A stretch of DNA of 57,809 nucleotides from Gemmatimonadaceae bacterium (GTDB lineage: Bacteria > Gemmatimonadota > Gemmatimonadetes > Gemmatimonadales > Gemmatimonadaceae): the NCBI GenBank assembly GCA_013817305.1, contig JACDCY010000006.1, forward strand, positions 1 through 57,809, given 5' to 3'. Position 1 is the stretch's first letter. Each line of letters opens with the position of its first letter. Position numbers and translations under genes: made by a program. Shown here in pieces: positions 5,257 through 12,563 of this stretch. The notes below the pieces were generated by a model. That model saw only the letters and a program-made list of their open reading frames with translations, was not told the origin of the DNA and searched no databases.

Positions 5257-7755
5257 GTGAAGATGGCCATCGTACCAACCCCTCCTTCGGCGTCCGCCGA
5301 GCTGAATCAGAACGCGAGAACCGTCATCGAAAAGCGGTATCTGGTTAAGGACGCTTCAGGGAAGCCAACTGAGCGACCCGAGGACATGTTCTGGCGCGTT
5401 TCGACCGTCGTCGCCGAGGCTGACAGGCGATACGGGGCGAGCGAGGGAGCGGTGACGGCGTTGGCGGAGGAGTTTTACGGTCTGATGACCCGCAGGCGGT
5501 TCGTGCCGAATTCGCCGACGCTCATGAACGCGGGCCGTCCCTTGGGGCAGCTGTCCGCCTGCTTCGTGCTCCCGGTGGAGGATGCGCTTTCAAACGGCCA
5601 CAACGGGATCTACGACACGCTGCGCTCGATGGCGCTGATCCATCAGTCCGGGGGAGGCACCGGCTTCTCGTTCTCGAAGCTGCGTGGGAGCGGATCGATG
5701 GTGCGGTCGACGACGGGCGTTGCATCCGGTCCCGTGTCCTTCATGAAGCTGTACGACGCGTCCACCGACGCGGTGAAGCAGGGAGGCACGCGCCGCGGTG
5801 CGAACATGGGCATTCTGCGCGTCGACCATCCCGACATCCTGCACTTCATCGACTGCAAGGAAGATCTGTCGCAGATCACGAATTTCAATATTTCCGTGGC
5901 CGTGACGGACCGGTTCATGGACGCGGTCAGGAGCGGGGCCGAGTATGATCTGGTGGATCCGGGCAGCGGCGACATCGTGGGCCAGCTCGACGCGCGGACC
6001 GTGTGGGACAAGATGATCGCCGGCGCGTGGAGAACAGGCGAGCCCGGGTGCTTCTTCATCGACGAGGCGAACCGGTACAACCCGGTGCCTCACGTGGGCC
6101 CGTACGAGGCGACGAATCCGTGCGGCGAGCAGCCGCTGCTCCCTTACGATGTCTGCAACCTGGGCTCGATCAACGCGGGCTTCTACGTTCGCGACGGCAA
6201 GATGGACTGGGATTCGCTGCGTCGCGACATCCATCTGTCGGTGCATTTCCTCGATAACATCATCGACGTCAACAAGTACCCGCTCCCCGAGATAGACGCG
6301 CTGTCAAAGCGCATCAGGCGCATCGGCTTCGGAGTTATGGGCTTCGCGGACGCGCTCGTCCGCATGGGTGTGGCGTACAACACTGAAGAGGGGATCCACT
6401 TCGGGCGCAAGCTGCAGGCTTTCGTCGATGTCGAGTCGAAGCGCGAGAGCGAGCGGCTAGCCAACGATCGCGGTCCGTTTCCCGAATGGGCTCGCTCGAT
6501 CTGGGGACCGGACGAGACTTGCGCCCGGGACGAGCGCGGTGCGCGGATCCGTCCGATGCAGATGCTGCGCAACTGCAACGTCAACACGATCGCTCCCACC
6601 GGGACGATCTCGATCATCGCAGGTTGCTCCTCGGGCATCGAGCCCCTGTTCGCCGTTGCGTTCATGCGCAACCAGGCCGGCGCGATGATGCCGGACGTGA
6701 ACGAGGATTTCCTCGCGATCGCGAAGAAAGAGGGGTGGCACTCGGACGCGCTTATGGAAAAGATCGCGAAAGAGGGACACATCCATTTCGACGAGGTGCC
6801 GGAGAAATGGCAGGGCGTGTTCGTCACCGCGCACGACATCACGCCCGAGTGGCATGTGAGGATGCAGGCGGCCTTCCAGGAGAATTGCGACTCCGCCATC
6901 TCCAAGACCACGAACTTCCCGCACATTGCGACCGCTTCGGACGTCCGCGCGATCTACGAGCTGGCGTACGAGCTCAAGTGCAAGGGCGTCACTGTCTACC
7001 GCGACGGCTCGCGCGACAACCAGGTGCTGTCGACGGGCGCGACGGAGAAGGCCAAGGCCGAGCGTGACGCGGACAAGTCGAGTCGCGCGGCTACCGGGGA
7101 TCTGCACGGAACGATCGCAGAGCTGACGGCTGAGCTCGAGCGGGTGAAGGGCGCGCTGTTCGAGTCCGAAGCGGAGAATCTCCAGCGCCGTACGAAGCGC
7201 GCGCGCCCCGACAAGCTCCGCGGCACTTCGATCAGAAAGGAAACGCCGCTTGGAACCATGTTCGTCCACATCACGGAAGACGACCGCGGCCAGCCGTTTG
7301 AGGTGTTCATAAATCTGGGCAAGGCCGGCGGCGCAGCGATGGCGGATGTCGAGGCCATGGGAAGACTGATCTCGCTCGCTCTCCGGTCGGGCATTCCGCT
7401 TCGCGAAGTCCACAGGCAGTTGCGCGGCATCAGCTCGGACCGCGCCGTCGGCATTGGCGCGAACAAGGTGCTGTCCGTGCCCGACGCGATAGGCATCGCG
7501 CTCGAAGAGTGGCTGCGGGAGAAGCAGGGTGTGCAGCAGGATCTTCTGAGCTCGGGCATGACGCCGCCGCTCGGCACCCCCATAACCGTGGCCGCTCCGC
7601 TCGCGTCGTCGGAGGGAGAGCAGGCGCAGTACGCTTTCGACGCTCTGGCGCACGATCAGGCTTCGTTTGGGACGTGTCCCGACTGCGGCTCGTCGCTAGA
7701 GTACGCCGAAGGGTGCGCGAAGTGCCACGTCTGCGGCTTCAGCGAGTGCGGGTGA
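5257..7755 (+). CDS. nrdJ: Coenzyme B12-dependent (class II) ribonucleoside-diphosphate reductase
   Basis: An 832-residue class II reductase that makes deoxyribonucleotides with adenosylcobalamin as radical source, independent of oxygen. Diagnostic motifs: NSPTLMNAG (85-93), LSACFVLPVED with Cys102, the active-site NPCGEQ with Asn287, Cys289 and Glu291, and Cys300 in YDVCNLGSIN. About residues 615-650 form a short coiled-coil-like insert, followed by the C-terminal domain of this family. The last 30 residues are a Cys-rich zinc-ribbon (CPDC, CAKCHVC) that probably carries the redox-active tail cysteines. The GTG start has a purine-rich site GAGCGGAG upstream; an ATG two codons later is an alternative. 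It stands alone, with no class I genes nearby. Confidence 0.95.
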   Translation: MKMAIVPTPPSASAELNQNARTVIEKRYLVKDASGKPTERPEDMFWRVSTVVAEADRRYGASEGAVTALAEEFYGLMTRRRFVPNSPTLMNAGRPLGQLSACFVLPVEDALSNGHNGIYDTLRSMALIHQSGGGTGFSFSKLRGSGSMVRSTTGVASGPVSFMKLYDASTDAVKQGGTRRGANMGILRVDHPDILHFIDCKEDLSQITNFNISVAVTDRFMDAVRSGAEYDLVDPGSGDIVGQLDARTVWDKMIAGAWRTGEPGCFFIDEANRYNPVPHVGPYEATNPCGEQPLLPYDVCNLGSINAGFYVRDGKMDWDSLRRDIHLSVHFLDNIIDVNKYPLPEIDALSKRIRRIGFGVMGFADALVRMGVAYNTEEGIHFGRKLQAFVDVESKRESERLANDRGPFPEWARSIWGPDETCARDERGARIRPMQMLRNCNVNTIAPTGTISIIAGCSSGIEPLFAVAFMRNQAGAMMPDVNEDFLAIAKKEGWHSDALMEKIAKEGHIHFDEVPEKWQGVFVTAHDITPEWHVRMQAAFQENCDSAISKTTNFPHIATASDVRAIYELAYELKCKGVTVYRDGSRDNQVLSTGATEKAKAERDADKSSRAATGDLHGTIAELTAELERVKGALFESEAENLQRRTKRARPDKLRGTSIRKETPLGTMFVHITEDDRGQPFEVFINLGKAGGAAMADVEAMGRLISLALRSGIPLREVHRQLRGISSDRAVGIGANKVLSVPDAIGIALEEWLREKQGVQQDLLSSGMTPPLGTPITVAAPLASSEGEQAQYAFDALAHDQASFGTCPDCGSSLEYAEGCAKCHVCGFSECG

Positions 7756-8099: not shown

Positions 8100-8570
8100 G
8101 TGGCCAGGAAGCCGATCGAGAGACGCTCGAATACGGCGGTGGAGCGCCGTGCTGTCCGCACGACTTCGTCGAAGGAAGCGTGGTTCCGGGACGAGGTGAT
8201 CGTGGTCGAGGACGACCGGGCTCTCGCGGACATGATCGCGTACGCGCTCGAGTCCACGGGCCGGCTTGTCACGGTTTACTACGATGGCGTCGAAGCGCTG
8301 CGGCAGCTCGTGGAACTTCCCGACATCGGCGCGCGCAGAGTGGTGCTGCTGTCCATCGATCTCTCTGGCATAGACGGGCACACGCTGCATGAACGCTTGC
8401 AGACGCTCCGCCCGAATTTCTTTCTGGTTGCCTTCATGAGCACGAGGGCGAGCGAGGCCGACCAGGTCAGGGCTCTGCGCGCCGGAGCAGTGGATTACCT
8501 GGTGAAGCCCGTCAGCATCCACGTTCTGGTGGAGAAGATCAGTGCCTGGCTGTCACTAAGTCATGACTGA
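8100..8570 (+). CDS. Atypical single-domain response regulator lacking the phospho-acceptor Asp
   Basis: A 156-residue protein: a basic 30-residue N-terminal tail, then one CheY-like receiver domain and no output domain. The acidic pocket is present (Glu37-Asp38-Asp39 in VVEDDRALADM), as are Ser114/Thr115 and the conserved Lys136 in YLVKP. The phospho-acceptor position is different: the usual LLD is LLS (Ser85), with an Asp two residues later (Asp87). It is therefore probably a pseudo-receiver acting as a protein-binding switch, or one activated by another route. The GTG start gives the full domain. The next gene begins three bases after its stop, so it likely regulates the HEAT/glycosyltransferase pair. 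Confidence 0.85.
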   Translation: MARKPIERRSNTAVERRAVRTTSSKEAWFRDEVIVVEDDRALADMIAYALESTGRLVTVYYDGVEALRQLVELPDIGARRVVLLSIDLSGIDGHTLHERLQTLRPNFFLVAFMSTRASEADQVRALRAGAVDYLVKPVSIHVLVEKISAWLSLSHD

Positions 8571-8573
8571 GGG

Positions 8574-9644
8574 ATGACCCGCTTCGCAGTGCTGGTCTTG
8601 ATCGCGGCGTTGCAACTGGCATTCATCATAATGACGTTGGTGCTGCTGTTTGTGACCAGGTTGCGCGGGAGTCGATGGAGAGCGCGCGAGGACGACGCGC
8701 AGATCGCTCTCGCCGAGCCGTTGCAACGGATAATGCTGGGAGATGATCGCGGAGAGGCACTCGCCGCCGCGCTCGGCCGGCTTCGCCGGGACGCTGCCAC
8801 CCGGGAGATGATCTCCATCGGGGGGACCCGCCTGTCCCCCGAGCAGCGTGCTGGGCTCGCGCTGCTGGTTCGGCACGCCCCATGGGTCGAACAGACGTTG
8901 GGCCAGGCACCATCGAGAAAGTGGTGGAAGCGGATGGAAGCGGCGCGCTTGCTGGTCATGGTCTGCGAAGAGCGTGACGTAGACCTCGTGGAGCGTCTGG
9001 TGACGGACGGCCATGCTGCCGTCGCGAGCGCCGCGACGGGTGCCATCGGGGGCTGCGCCAACCCGTCGCTCGTCTCAGCGATTGTCGGGGGACTTCCATT
9101 TCGCCCGGGTTCCGTCCGGCTGCAGCAGTGCAACGCGCTTCGAAGCCATTCGGCTCTGGCGAATGATGCCGTCGTAGTCGCGCTTTCACGGCCGGCGTCG
9201 GTCGCCCAGCTACGCGCGTGGATACAGCTTGCGGAGGTGCTCGCGACACCGGACGCCCTCGCGGCCGTAGTCCCGCTGGCTTCGCACGCCGACCGTGACG
9301 TGCGCACGAGCGCAGCCAGGGCGCTTCGCTCCTGTTTCTCCGCGGAGGGCGCGGAAGCCGTGAGCGGACTGTTGAAAGACGAGGACTGGCGAGTTCGCGC
9401 CGCGGCCGCCAGGGCGGTGGGGGCGCTCAACGTGCGCGGCGCAATCCCCATGCTCAGCGAGTCGATGCATGACGAATCGTGGTGGGTGCGCTTCCGCGCC
9501 GGGCTGGCGCTGGCAGACCTGTCGATGGCAGGTCGCGCAGCGCTCGAGGAGGCGCAGGGGTCTCCCGACCCGTTCGCGCGCGACATGGCCACGCTGGTCA
9601 AGGGTCTATCCGATGGAAGCCGTCTCGATCTGACGTCGGCTTGA
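8574..9644 (+). CDS. Membrane-anchored HEAT-repeat protein
   Basis: A 356-residue protein with one N-terminal transmembrane helix (about residues 4-28) followed by a cytoplasmic-looking helical domain. From about residue 140 onwards there are several HEAT/PBS-lyase-type repeats, for example DVRTSAARALRS, WRVRAAAARAVGAL and WWVRFRAGLALADL. Such repeats serve as protein-protein scaffolds. Its stop overlaps the glycosyltransferase start by one base (TGATG), so the two proteins are probably made together. I infer a scaffold or regulatory partner between the receiver protein and the synthase; no enzymatic motif is seen. Confidence 0.82.
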   Translation: MTRFAVLVLIAALQLAFIIMTLVLLFVTRLRGSRWRAREDDAQIALAEPLQRIMLGDDRGEALAAALGRLRRDAATREMISIGGTRLSPEQRAGLALLVRHAPWVEQTLGQAPSRKWWKRMEAARLLVMVCEERDVDLVERLVTDGHAAVASAATGAIGGCANPSLVSAIVGGLPFRPGSVRLQQCNALRSHSALANDAVVVALSRPASVAQLRAWIQLAEVLATPDALAAVVPLASHADRDVRTSAARALRSCFSAEGAEAVSGLLKDEDWRVRAAAARAVGALNVRGAIPMLSESMHDESWWVRFRAGLALADLSMAGRAALEEAQGSPDPFARDMATLVKGLSDGSRLDLTSA

Positions 9645-11071
9645 TGGAGGCCGAGCAGCTGCGCGCGGCATTCCTCGCGGCGCTGTTCTGGATAGATAAC
9701 GGAATCGTCGCGTATTTCCTGCTGCTCAATTCCTTCTACGCGCTGCTTCTACTGCTCGCGATTCCCGAGCTGATGGAGCACTGGCGCATCGCGGATGACG
9801 AGAACCTCCGTTTGCTGCGAGGATCGGAGGTGGTTCCCCCCATCTCGGTGCTCGTGCCAGCGTTCAACGAGCAGGCCACGATCGTCGCCAGCGTGCTTTC
9901 GTTTCTCACGCTCGAATATCCGAGCCACGAAGTGGTGGTGGTGAACGACGGCTCTACCGACGGAACGATGGAAGCACTGATCTCGTTTTACGAGCTGTAT
10001 GAAGCGCCGGCCGCGTATCCGGATGTCGTGCCCACTGCGCGCGTCCGGGCGTACTATCGATCCAAGGTCTACTCCAAGCTCACCTGCATCGACAAGGAAA
10101 ACGGGGGGAAGGGTGACTCGCTCAACGCGGCGGTGAATGCCGCGCGGTTCAGCTACGTCCTCGCCGTCGACGCGGACACGCTCGTCGAGCGGGATGCACT
10201 ACTGAGGCTCGCCCGGCCATTCCTGCTTGGCGAGCCGGTCGCCGCCGTCGGAGCGACGGTGAGGGTAGTCAACGGGTCGACGGTCGTGCACGGGATAGTT
10301 ACTCACCCGCGTGTCGACGGACGATGGCTGCCCGGGATTCAGACAGTTGAATACCTCCGCGCGTTTCTGTTCGGCAGGCTGGGATGGAACCGCCTTGGTG
10401 GGAGCCTGATCATCTCGGGAGCGTTCGGGCTGTTCAAGCAGGAGCACCTGCAGGCGATCGGGGGCTACAATGCCGGAAGCGTGACCGAAGACATGGACAT
10501 CGTGATCCGCCTGCACAAGCACCTGCGGACGGAGGGCTCCCGCGACACGATTCAGTTCATTCCCGATCCTGTCGCCTGGACCGAGGTGCCGGTCACGCTC
10601 CGCAGCCTCTACCGCCAGCGCGAGCGGTGGCATCGCGGGCTTATCTCCACCTTAGTTAGCCATCGGAGCGTGTGCTTCAATCCGCGGTACGGACGACTTG
10701 GCTTCATAGCCTATCCCTTTTTCCTGTTTGGCGAGATGCTGGCCCCGTTGATAGAGGTCGTTGGATACCTCGCCTTCGGCGTCAGTCTCTATCTTGGCGT
10801 GGCGGACCTGGAATTTGCCCTCCTGTTCCTGCTCGTCTCGGTCGGCTTCGGCTTTTTGTTGTCGCTCTGGGCGACCGTGCTCGAGGAGGTCAGCTTCAGG
10901 CGGTATCCATCGATCCGTGACTTCTTCCTGCTTATCTGGTTCTCCGTGATCGAGGCGTTCGGATACCGTCAGGTCACCCTCTGGTTTCGGCTCCAGTCGT
11001 ACTGGAAGTACGTTCGCGGGGACGTGCGCTGGGGCGTGATGGAGAGGGAGGGCTTCAACCGAGTGTCATGA
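9644..11071 (+). CDS. Processive family 2 glycosyltransferase, PgaC/hyaluronan-synthase-like
   Basis: A 475-residue inner-membrane polysaccharide synthase. One or two N-terminal membrane helices (about 12-42) precede the GT-A domain, and about three C-terminal helices (365-450) follow. Catalytic motifs are complete: VVNDGSTDGT with Asp102, the DAD metal/nucleotide motif (Asp176, Asp178), TEDMD with the base Asp283, and QRERW (325-329) of processive synthases. Such enzymes polymerise one UDP-sugar and export the chain; which sugar is unknown. The ATG at 9644 is chosen for its overlap with the upstream stop; 55 extra in-frame codons upstream only mirror the HEAT gene. Confidence 0.92.
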   Translation: MEAEQLRAAFLAALFWIDNGIVAYFLLLNSFYALLLLLAIPELMEHWRIADDENLRLLRGSEVVPPISVLVPAFNEQATIVASVLSFLTLEYPSHEVVVVNDGSTDGTMEALISFYELYEAPAAYPDVVPTARVRAYYRSKVYSKLTCIDKENGGKGDSLNAAVNAARFSYVLAVDADTLVERDALLRLARPFLLGEPVAAVGATVRVVNGSTVVHGIVTHPRVDGRWLPGIQTVEYLRAFLFGRLGWNRLGGSLIISGAFGLFKQEHLQAIGGYNAGSVTEDMDIVIRLHKHLRTEGSRDTIQFIPDPVAWTEVPVTLRSLYRQRERWHRGLISTLVSHRSVCFNPRYGRLGFIAYPFFLFGEMLAPLIEVVGYLAFGVSLYLGVADLEFALLFLLVSVGFGFLLSLWATVLEEVSFRRYPSIRDFFLLIWFSVIEAFGYRQVTLWFRLQSYWKYVRGDVRWGVMEREGFNRVS

Positions 11072-11129: not shown

Positions 11130-12563
11130 ATGCATCTCGACGTAGGCAAGCTCGACTCATGCCACGCTCGCTACCTAATGGTCATTGCCGCGAGCGCCGT
11201 GTTTGCTGTCGGCTGCGGCGGGGACCGAAGCCCCGAACCTTCTACCGTTCTCCTCTCGCGAGCGCCGGTCCCGCCTCCGCTTCCGCTCTCGCGATTCGAT
11301 GTCCCACTCGACTACGACTTGACGCCCGTCCTCCGCACGGTTGAGCGAGCAGTCCCGAGGACGTTCGGTTCGCTGGATAGCGTCAAGCGGGAGGATGGAC
11401 GCCGGTCGTACGCCTACGTCGTCACGCGAGGGCGATTCACGGGGTTCGTGCGGGGAGGCGAAGTTCACCTGCGGTCGACTTTCACGTACGCCGCGCGGGG
11501 CTTCTACAAGCCCCCGCTGAGCCCCACGCTGAGTGCCGGTTGCGGCGGAGAGACGAGCGGACCGCGGCTCGCCGTGGAGCTTGCGACGCCGCTGACGCTC
11601 ACCGACGAATGGAGGCTGTCGCCGCGCGCACGGATAGTACGCGTTGCGCCCTTCAGCGATACGGACCGCGACAAGTGTACGGTGAGTCTCATCAATTACG
11701 ATATTACCCAGCGCGTCGTGTCAGCGGCGCGCTCTGCGATTCAAGAAAAACTCCCTGAAATCAACCGCCGTGTTTCGCAGGTGAAACTCGAAGATCGCTT
11801 CTCGCGGTGGTGGGAGCTCCTCAACCGCCCGATCCGGCTGACGGACGGTGTCTGGTTGCTGCTCGAGCCCGAACAGCTGCGGTTAGGCGGAGTCTCCGGG
11901 TCAGGATCGATTCTTACTGTACAGGCGGGACTTGATGCGCGTCCGCGCGTGATCGCCAGCGTTCGGCAGCCGACGGTGGGCGCGACAGTGCTGCCGCCCC
12001 TGGCGCGCGGCTCGTCTGCAGAGGGGTTTCAAATATATGTCGAGGGGCGAATCGGCTACGCAGCGGCGTCGCAACAGCTGACCGAGAGGTTGACTGGAAT
12101 GAACATTACGCGCGCCGGGCGGAGCGTAACAATCCAAACTGTCGTGGCCACACCGTCGCCCGGCGGCCGGCTTCGATTGGCGGTCGGCTTTACGGGGGAC
12201 GCATCGGGCATGCTCCAATTTACCGGAATTCCGCGGTACGACGCCGCGAAGCGCGAGATTTCGGTTCCCGATCTGGACTATGAGATCGAGACGGACAGCC
12301 GGCTCGTCAGCGCATACGTTTGGCTTCGCACTGACGAGCTCAGGGACGTATTCAGATCGCGGGCGCAGCTCTCGGCAGATCCTGCGTTGGAGCGCGGACG
12401 AAGCCTGCTTCTCGCCGGCCTGAACCGCAAGCTTGGTGACGTCCTGACGCTCTCCGCGACCGTAGACTCGGTAGCGGTGCGAGGCGTGTATATCACGCCG
12501 GAGGGAGTGCTCGTCCGGGCGTTGGCGATGGGGGACGCATCGGTCCAGGTGCGGCAGGAATAG
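11130..12563 (+). CDS. DUF4403 family lipoprotein
   Basis: A protein of up to 477 residues matching the look of DUF4403: a long beta-rich periplasmic protein with the region WWELLNRPIRLTDGVWLLL near residue 230 followed by a glycine-rich strand series. An export signal ends in the lipobox-like VGCGG. The ATG at 11130 gives an n-region with few positive charges; the in-frame ATG at 11178 gives a shorter signal MVIAASAVFAVGC and may be the true start. It follows the glycosyltransferase by 58 bases, so it may join the envelope polysaccharide module, but it may also have its own promoter. Molecular function is unknown. Confidence 0.75.
   Translation: MHLDVGKLDSCHARYLMVIAASAVFAVGCGGDRSPEPSTVLLSRAPVPPPLPLSRFDVPLDYDLTPVLRTVERAVPRTFGSLDSVKREDGRRSYAYVVTRGRFTGFVRGGEVHLRSTFTYAARGFYKPPLSPTLSAGCGGETSGPRLAVELATPLTLTDEWRLSPRARIVRVAPFSDTDRDKCTVSLINYDITQRVVSAARSAIQEKLPEINRRVSQVKLEDRFSRWWELLNRPIRLTDGVWLLLEPEQLRLGGVSGSGSILTVQAGLDARPRVIASVRQPTVGATVLPPLARGSSAEGFQIYVEGRIGYAAASQQLTERLTGMNITRAGRSVTIQTVVATPSPGGRLRLAVGFTGDASGMLQFTGIPRYDAAKREISVPDLDYEIETDSRLVSAYVWLRTDELRDVFRSRAQLSADPALERGRSLLLAGLNRKLGDVLTLSATVDSVAVRGVYITPEGVLVRALAMGDASVQVRQE

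Follow-up and report, generated by a model that had tools for sequence, protein, structure and literature searches.

A single-domain receiver with Ser at the phospho-acceptor position, encoded upstream of a HEAT-repeat protein and a PgaC-like GT2 synthase in Gemmatimonadota: a possible phosphorelay remnant

The window, i.e., the whole stretch of 57,809 nucleotides that was analyzed, belongs to a Gemmatimonadota MAG of 2.55 Mb that is 89% complete. On its forward strand, positions 8100–8570 form an ORF with a GTG start that encodes a single-domain receiver of 156 amino acids, in which Ser85 replaces the phospho-acceptor Asp. This replacement is confirmed. The explanation that we favor, with a probability of roughly 0.6, is that the Asp-less receiver is the remnant of a phosphorelay in cis, which lost its phosphate input and would have kept its docking on the HEAT/GT2 pair encoded downstream.

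The protein consists of a basic N-terminus of 30 residues followed by the receiver domain (residues 32–151). Its sole Pfam match is PF00072 (E 8e-17, residues 33–147), scoring 61.9 bits where the curated cut-off is 30.2. Ser85, encoded by TCC (8352–8354, + strand), falls in the Asp column in HMMER alignments to solved receivers, to 36 relatives, most of which have Asp, and to 37 receivers of the same genome, as the sequence-only reading had proposed. Those 37 other scoreable receivers all carry Asp at the acceptor position, leaving the window receiver as the only one of 38 without it (a further one, L190, was not scoreable and was left out). The remainder of the active site is largely retained. 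The acidic pocket is present as was first read, although the metal-binding pair is Glu37-Asp38 (8208–8213, + strand) rather than Glu37-Asp39. Ser114 occupies the conserved Ser/Thr position, while Thr115, initially listed beside it, corresponds to T+1 and is no second catalytic residue. Lys136 is kept, as was first read, and so is Tyr133 (K-3). A phosphorylatable receiver has the acceptor Asp at the end of β3; as a PF00072 member with Ser there, the window protein falls under the definition of a pseudo-receiver (Maule et al., 2015, PMC4395418; Bourret et al., 2025, PMC12632262). The domain presumably cannot be switched via Asp phosphorylation at the usual site. Two further positions vary as well. 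The D+4 Pro, otherwise invariant across the 36 relatives aligned, has become Ser, Val or Ala in the genus of the window. T+1, which is usually small, reads Val in many Asp-bearing relatives; in BldM, this feature may hinder phosphorylation (PMC12632262). About 4% of all receivers lack Asp (PMC12632262), Ser being one of the usual substitutes (PMC4395418); taken singly, the Ser85 observation is of an already known kind.

The receiver gene heads a unit with the two genes that follow it, in agreement with the sequence-only reading. Next in order is the gene for a HEAT-repeat protein of 356 amino acids (8574–9644, + strand; PF13646, E 8e-17), which adjoins the GT2 gene in relatives too and whose hydrophobic N-terminal segment is likely a membrane anchor. 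The ATG of the GT2 synthase (9644–11071, + strand) overlaps the HEAT stop codon. Downstream of the synthase lies a gene for a DUF4403 protein (11130–12563, + strand; PF14356, E 6e-70). No sigma-70-like promoter was found between positions 7700 and 8200 of the window, and searches of plasmids gave no match to the HEAT protein. The synthase is of the processive type, with the motifs NDGS, DAD, TED and QRERW intact and VDADT, TEDMD and QRERW agreeing with the processive-GT2 pattern of DxD, TED and QxxRW. The nearest named model is the poly-N-acetylglucosamine synthase PgaC/IcaA, but the score of 132.4 bits is far below the equivalog cut-off of 422.3, and the enzyme is best described as PgaC-like, without assignment to the PgaC/IcaA family. 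If the operon functions as a unit, it would additionally differ from PgaC/IcaA in its regulation by the receiver and the HEAT protein.

An assembly error at the acceptor codon was considered and rejected, as Ser is found at other loci as well, encoded by other Ser codons. A second MAG of the same genus (G039) has two paralogous receiver-HEAT-GT2 operons (L031 and L032), in both of which the Ser is encoded by TCG. Among these three Ser receivers dN/dS is 0.13–0.15, compared to 0.05–0.12 for Asp-bearing pairs, which are closer pairs. The different codons and the dN/dS values together indicate neither an assembly error nor decay. The proposal that this is a pseudo-receiver holds, and its sequence is under purifying selection.

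To place the replacement in a wider context, receivers were gathered within Gemmatimonadota, from fetched regions and from searches that used the HEAT, receiver and GT2 proteins as queries. This yielded 78 receivers upstream of HEAT-GT2 pairs, from at least four families of the phylum. The acceptor residue is Asp in 62, Glu in seven, Gly in four, Ser in three and Ala in two. Fixation of Ser85 therefore applies to the three operons of the window's genus, and the suggestion that it extends to the family was rejected, since 62 of the 78 receivers in the same context carry Asp. Relatives with a normal Asp, the finding named beforehand as evidence against a non-phosphorylation switch, are thus the rule in the family, although the clade of the window itself has mostly lost Asp. 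On the synthase tree, Asp was lost in at least five lineages: to Ser in the window's genus, to Ala in genus g5, to Gly in another g5 lineage, and to Glu in a clade of six members and in G397. In the Gly lineage of g5, Asp and Gly alternate between close relatives, which indicates that some Asp residues may have been regained. Separately, the receiver of G024 (L018:836–1489) keeps the acceptor Asp and has its acidic pair replaced by Thr-Ala, possibly another route to a pseudo-receiver beside HEAT-GT2.

The architecture of the relatives points to the origin of the window protein. Complete relatives are organized as Hpt-REC-...-REC (638–644 amino acids) or as Hpt-REC, and in a second operon type the regulator includes a GGDEF domain with a good Pfam match. 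The window's clade retains the last receiver only; six such receiver-only forms constitute one clade with support 100/100. Asp is lost in five of the six, with Ala at the acceptor in a sister genus of the same receiver-only architecture; the sixth, G042, carries Asp, and phosphorylation may have been either kept or regained there. A tree that unites the two Ala members passes the AU test (p-AU 0.09), which leaves two histories for the clade: two to three losses, or a single loss followed by a regain of Asp in G042. Moreover, no match to an Hpt domain was found anywhere in the window's genome (89% complete), and with a full-length relative as query the Hpt part stayed unmatched in that genome.

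The same association is seen across the family. Where an Hpt domain with its histidine is visible, the acceptor is Asp in 45 cases and Glu in five, whereas in all eight scoreable Ser, Ala or Gly cases (three Ser, two Ala and three of the four Gly, the fourth locus being cut by a contig end) the Hpt is absent or its histidine substituted. This comparison leaves out about a dozen Asp-bearing loci that are too short to show the N-terminus. Fisher's test of Ser/Ala/Gly against Hpt state over the scoreable rows gives a p of about 1e-6, to be read as a description of the pattern and not as a corrected probability, since it counts related rows instead of independent events and gives no order of loss. 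Of the seven Glu members, five have an intact Hpt histidine, so Hpt loss does not explain every loss of Asp.

Several features of the second operon type deserve mention in their own right. In L064, L071, L072 and L130–L150, a long REC/Hpt/GGDEF/REC regulator precedes HEAT-GT2. The copy in G039 reads GGEEF and may be an active diguanylate cyclase. In the g5 representatives (L071, L147 and L148) the Hpt histidine is changed to Gln or Arg and the acceptor of the last receiver is Gly. Downstream in L071 and L072 is a frame that looks, by eye, like a citrate synthase.

The α4-β5-α5 surface is the usual output face of receivers. Set against the genome's 37 generic receivers, the excess conservation of the family is largest in α4, followed by the α3-β4 link and β5. 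For the element boundaries in this count, only the order of strands and helices was taken from an AlphaFold model of the receiver built with three sequences, as its mean pLDDT is 48. Each of the six receiver-only members, with or without Asp, retains the family-specific residues Q122, R124, K146 and W150 of the output face, together with P105 and F112. This suggests that the output contact is still selected though the phosphate input is gone. The loss of the acceptor with conservation of the output face fits control by binding, the switch that the sequence-only reading had imagined.

Altogether, the following scheme is proposed. The ancestor would have been an Hpt-REC-(GGDEF-like)-REC regulator whose last receiver was encoded directly upstream of the HEAT protein and the PgaC-like GT2. 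The clade of the window would have kept the last receiver alone after loss of the Hpt and the inner domains, and Asp has given way to Ser here and to Ala in the sister genus. The present protein would act as a constitutive docking or assembly subunit that places its α4-β5-α5 face on the membrane-anchored HEAT protein, or on the synthase, and its output would be set through expression level or partners. The absence of phosphorylation, the docking itself, the choice of partner and the effect on polysaccharide synthesis are what we infer from the comparison of sequences. For Asp-bearing members, a kinase or Hpt in trans may supply the phosphate. A broader version is possible, and we put it forward tentatively: throughout Gemmatimonadota, REC, HEAT and GT2 would form a module, and a membrane polysaccharide synthase would be controlled by the docking of an Hpt phosphorelay's last receiver onto the HEAT solenoid. 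Pseudo-receivers would then arise by donor loss, the phosphate input being lost repeatedly and the docking kept.

Other explanations were weighed against the docking remnant. An unlikely one is that the signal is a ligand instead of phosphate, either a small molecule or a second messenger, bound in the degenerate pocket or on a different face. Pseudo-receivers do bind ligands, with c-di-GMP known for ShkA and quinones for CikA and KaiA (PMC12632262), and the GGDEF domains in relatives of the module make c-di-GMP a reasonable candidate; however, no ligand site was identified in the window receiver, and the receiver-only clade is without GGDEF in cis. It is slightly more doubtful that Ser85 itself is the switch, being phosphorylated by a Hanks-type Ser/Thr kinase with Ser114, Lys136 and the acidic pair reading the phosphate. 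Receivers that lack Asp commonly have Ser, for which phosphorylation has been suggested (PMC4395418), and all three same-genus receivers keep Ser, with TCC/TCG codon changes. Against this, the residue is Ala in the sister genus, within the same architecture, other lineages have Gly or Glu, and a review from 2015 knew of no modification besides Asp phosphorylation at the acceptor position (PMC4395418).

There is little chance that the receiver simply drifts, i.e., that it became dispensable after Hpt loss and that Ser is one step of decay. Such drift would agree with the joint absence of Asp and the D+4 Pro in the window's genus, with two further genomes of that genus (G006 and G061) in which no match to the synthase was found, and with the alternation of Asp and Gly among close relatives elsewhere. 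Nevertheless, the dN/dS of the Ser receivers is near that of the Asp-bearing pairs, the fold and output face are kept, and the genome with two operons retained both receivers. Lastly, takeover of the acceptor role by Asp87 (GAT, 8358–8360, + strand) was rejected and is very improbable: although it sits two residues from the old site, at D+2, an Asp there is ancestral, being present in 33 of the 36 relatives and mostly alongside Asp85, and one of the two Ala85 relatives, G079, has Asn instead.

The docking remnant can be compared with several known systems. With the aspartate-less receivers described before (Maule et al., 2015, PMC4395418; Bourret et al., 2025, PMC12632262) it shares the PF00072 fold, the replaced Asp and the partly kept active site; it differs in being a stand-alone domain in an operon with HEAT and GT2, and in that its loss of Asp maps onto a tree next to the loss of a donor in cis. 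A precedent for docking of a pseudo-receiver on the HEAT/GT2 pair is FrzS of Myxococcus xanthus, whose pseudo-receiver lacks the critical phosphorylation residues and binds SgmX, an α-solenoid of 14 TPRs (PMC11580455, PMC12632262). FrzS has a long coiled coil and functions in type IV pilus control, whereas the window domain stands alone and the solenoid would be the HEAT protein. In addition, the FrzS contact is made by the α3-β4-α4 face, while α4 and the α4-β5-α5 face are most conserved here. PleD-type REC-REC-GGDEF proteins resemble the relatives of the module in joining receivers to GGDEF, and PleD has a pseudo-receiver as well (PMC12632262); by comparison, the relatives carry an Hpt and a C-terminal receiver after GGDEF, and the window protein is without an output domain. 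In the literature, we found no description of a receiver-HEAT-GT2 system, nor of repeated Asp loss beside one conserved partner pair alongside loss of the phosphodonor in cis. The mode of action of bacterial pseudo-receivers is considered an open problem (PMC12632262). Next to one and the same partner pair, the family has receivers with Asp, Glu, Gly, Ala or Ser, and phosphodonor loss is visible on the tree; this offers a natural series for testing whether docking can outlive phosphorylation and whether donor loss comes first.

The state of the synthase was compared as well, for synthases long enough to score. None of the receiver-bearing operons scored has lost NDGS (SDGS in four), DAD, ED or QxxRW, whatever the acceptor residue. 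Among the operons sampled, the integrity of the synthase follows the presence of a receiver more closely than the acceptor residue, with exceptions: no receiver is visible at G311, G402 and G420 (the G420 locus is cut by a contig end), which keep the motifs except for one change. DxD, TED and QxxRW are lost in six receiver-less HEAT-GT2 pairs (L014, L016, L017, L020, L021 and L026), which are apparent pseudo-glycosyltransferases. Upstream of the pair, L014 has a gene for a ThiF-rhodanese protein, with a similar frame in L016, L017 and L021, and in G311 (family f7; L129:1858–2670) the frame before HEAT-GT2 resembles, by eye, an outer-membrane β-barrel protein.
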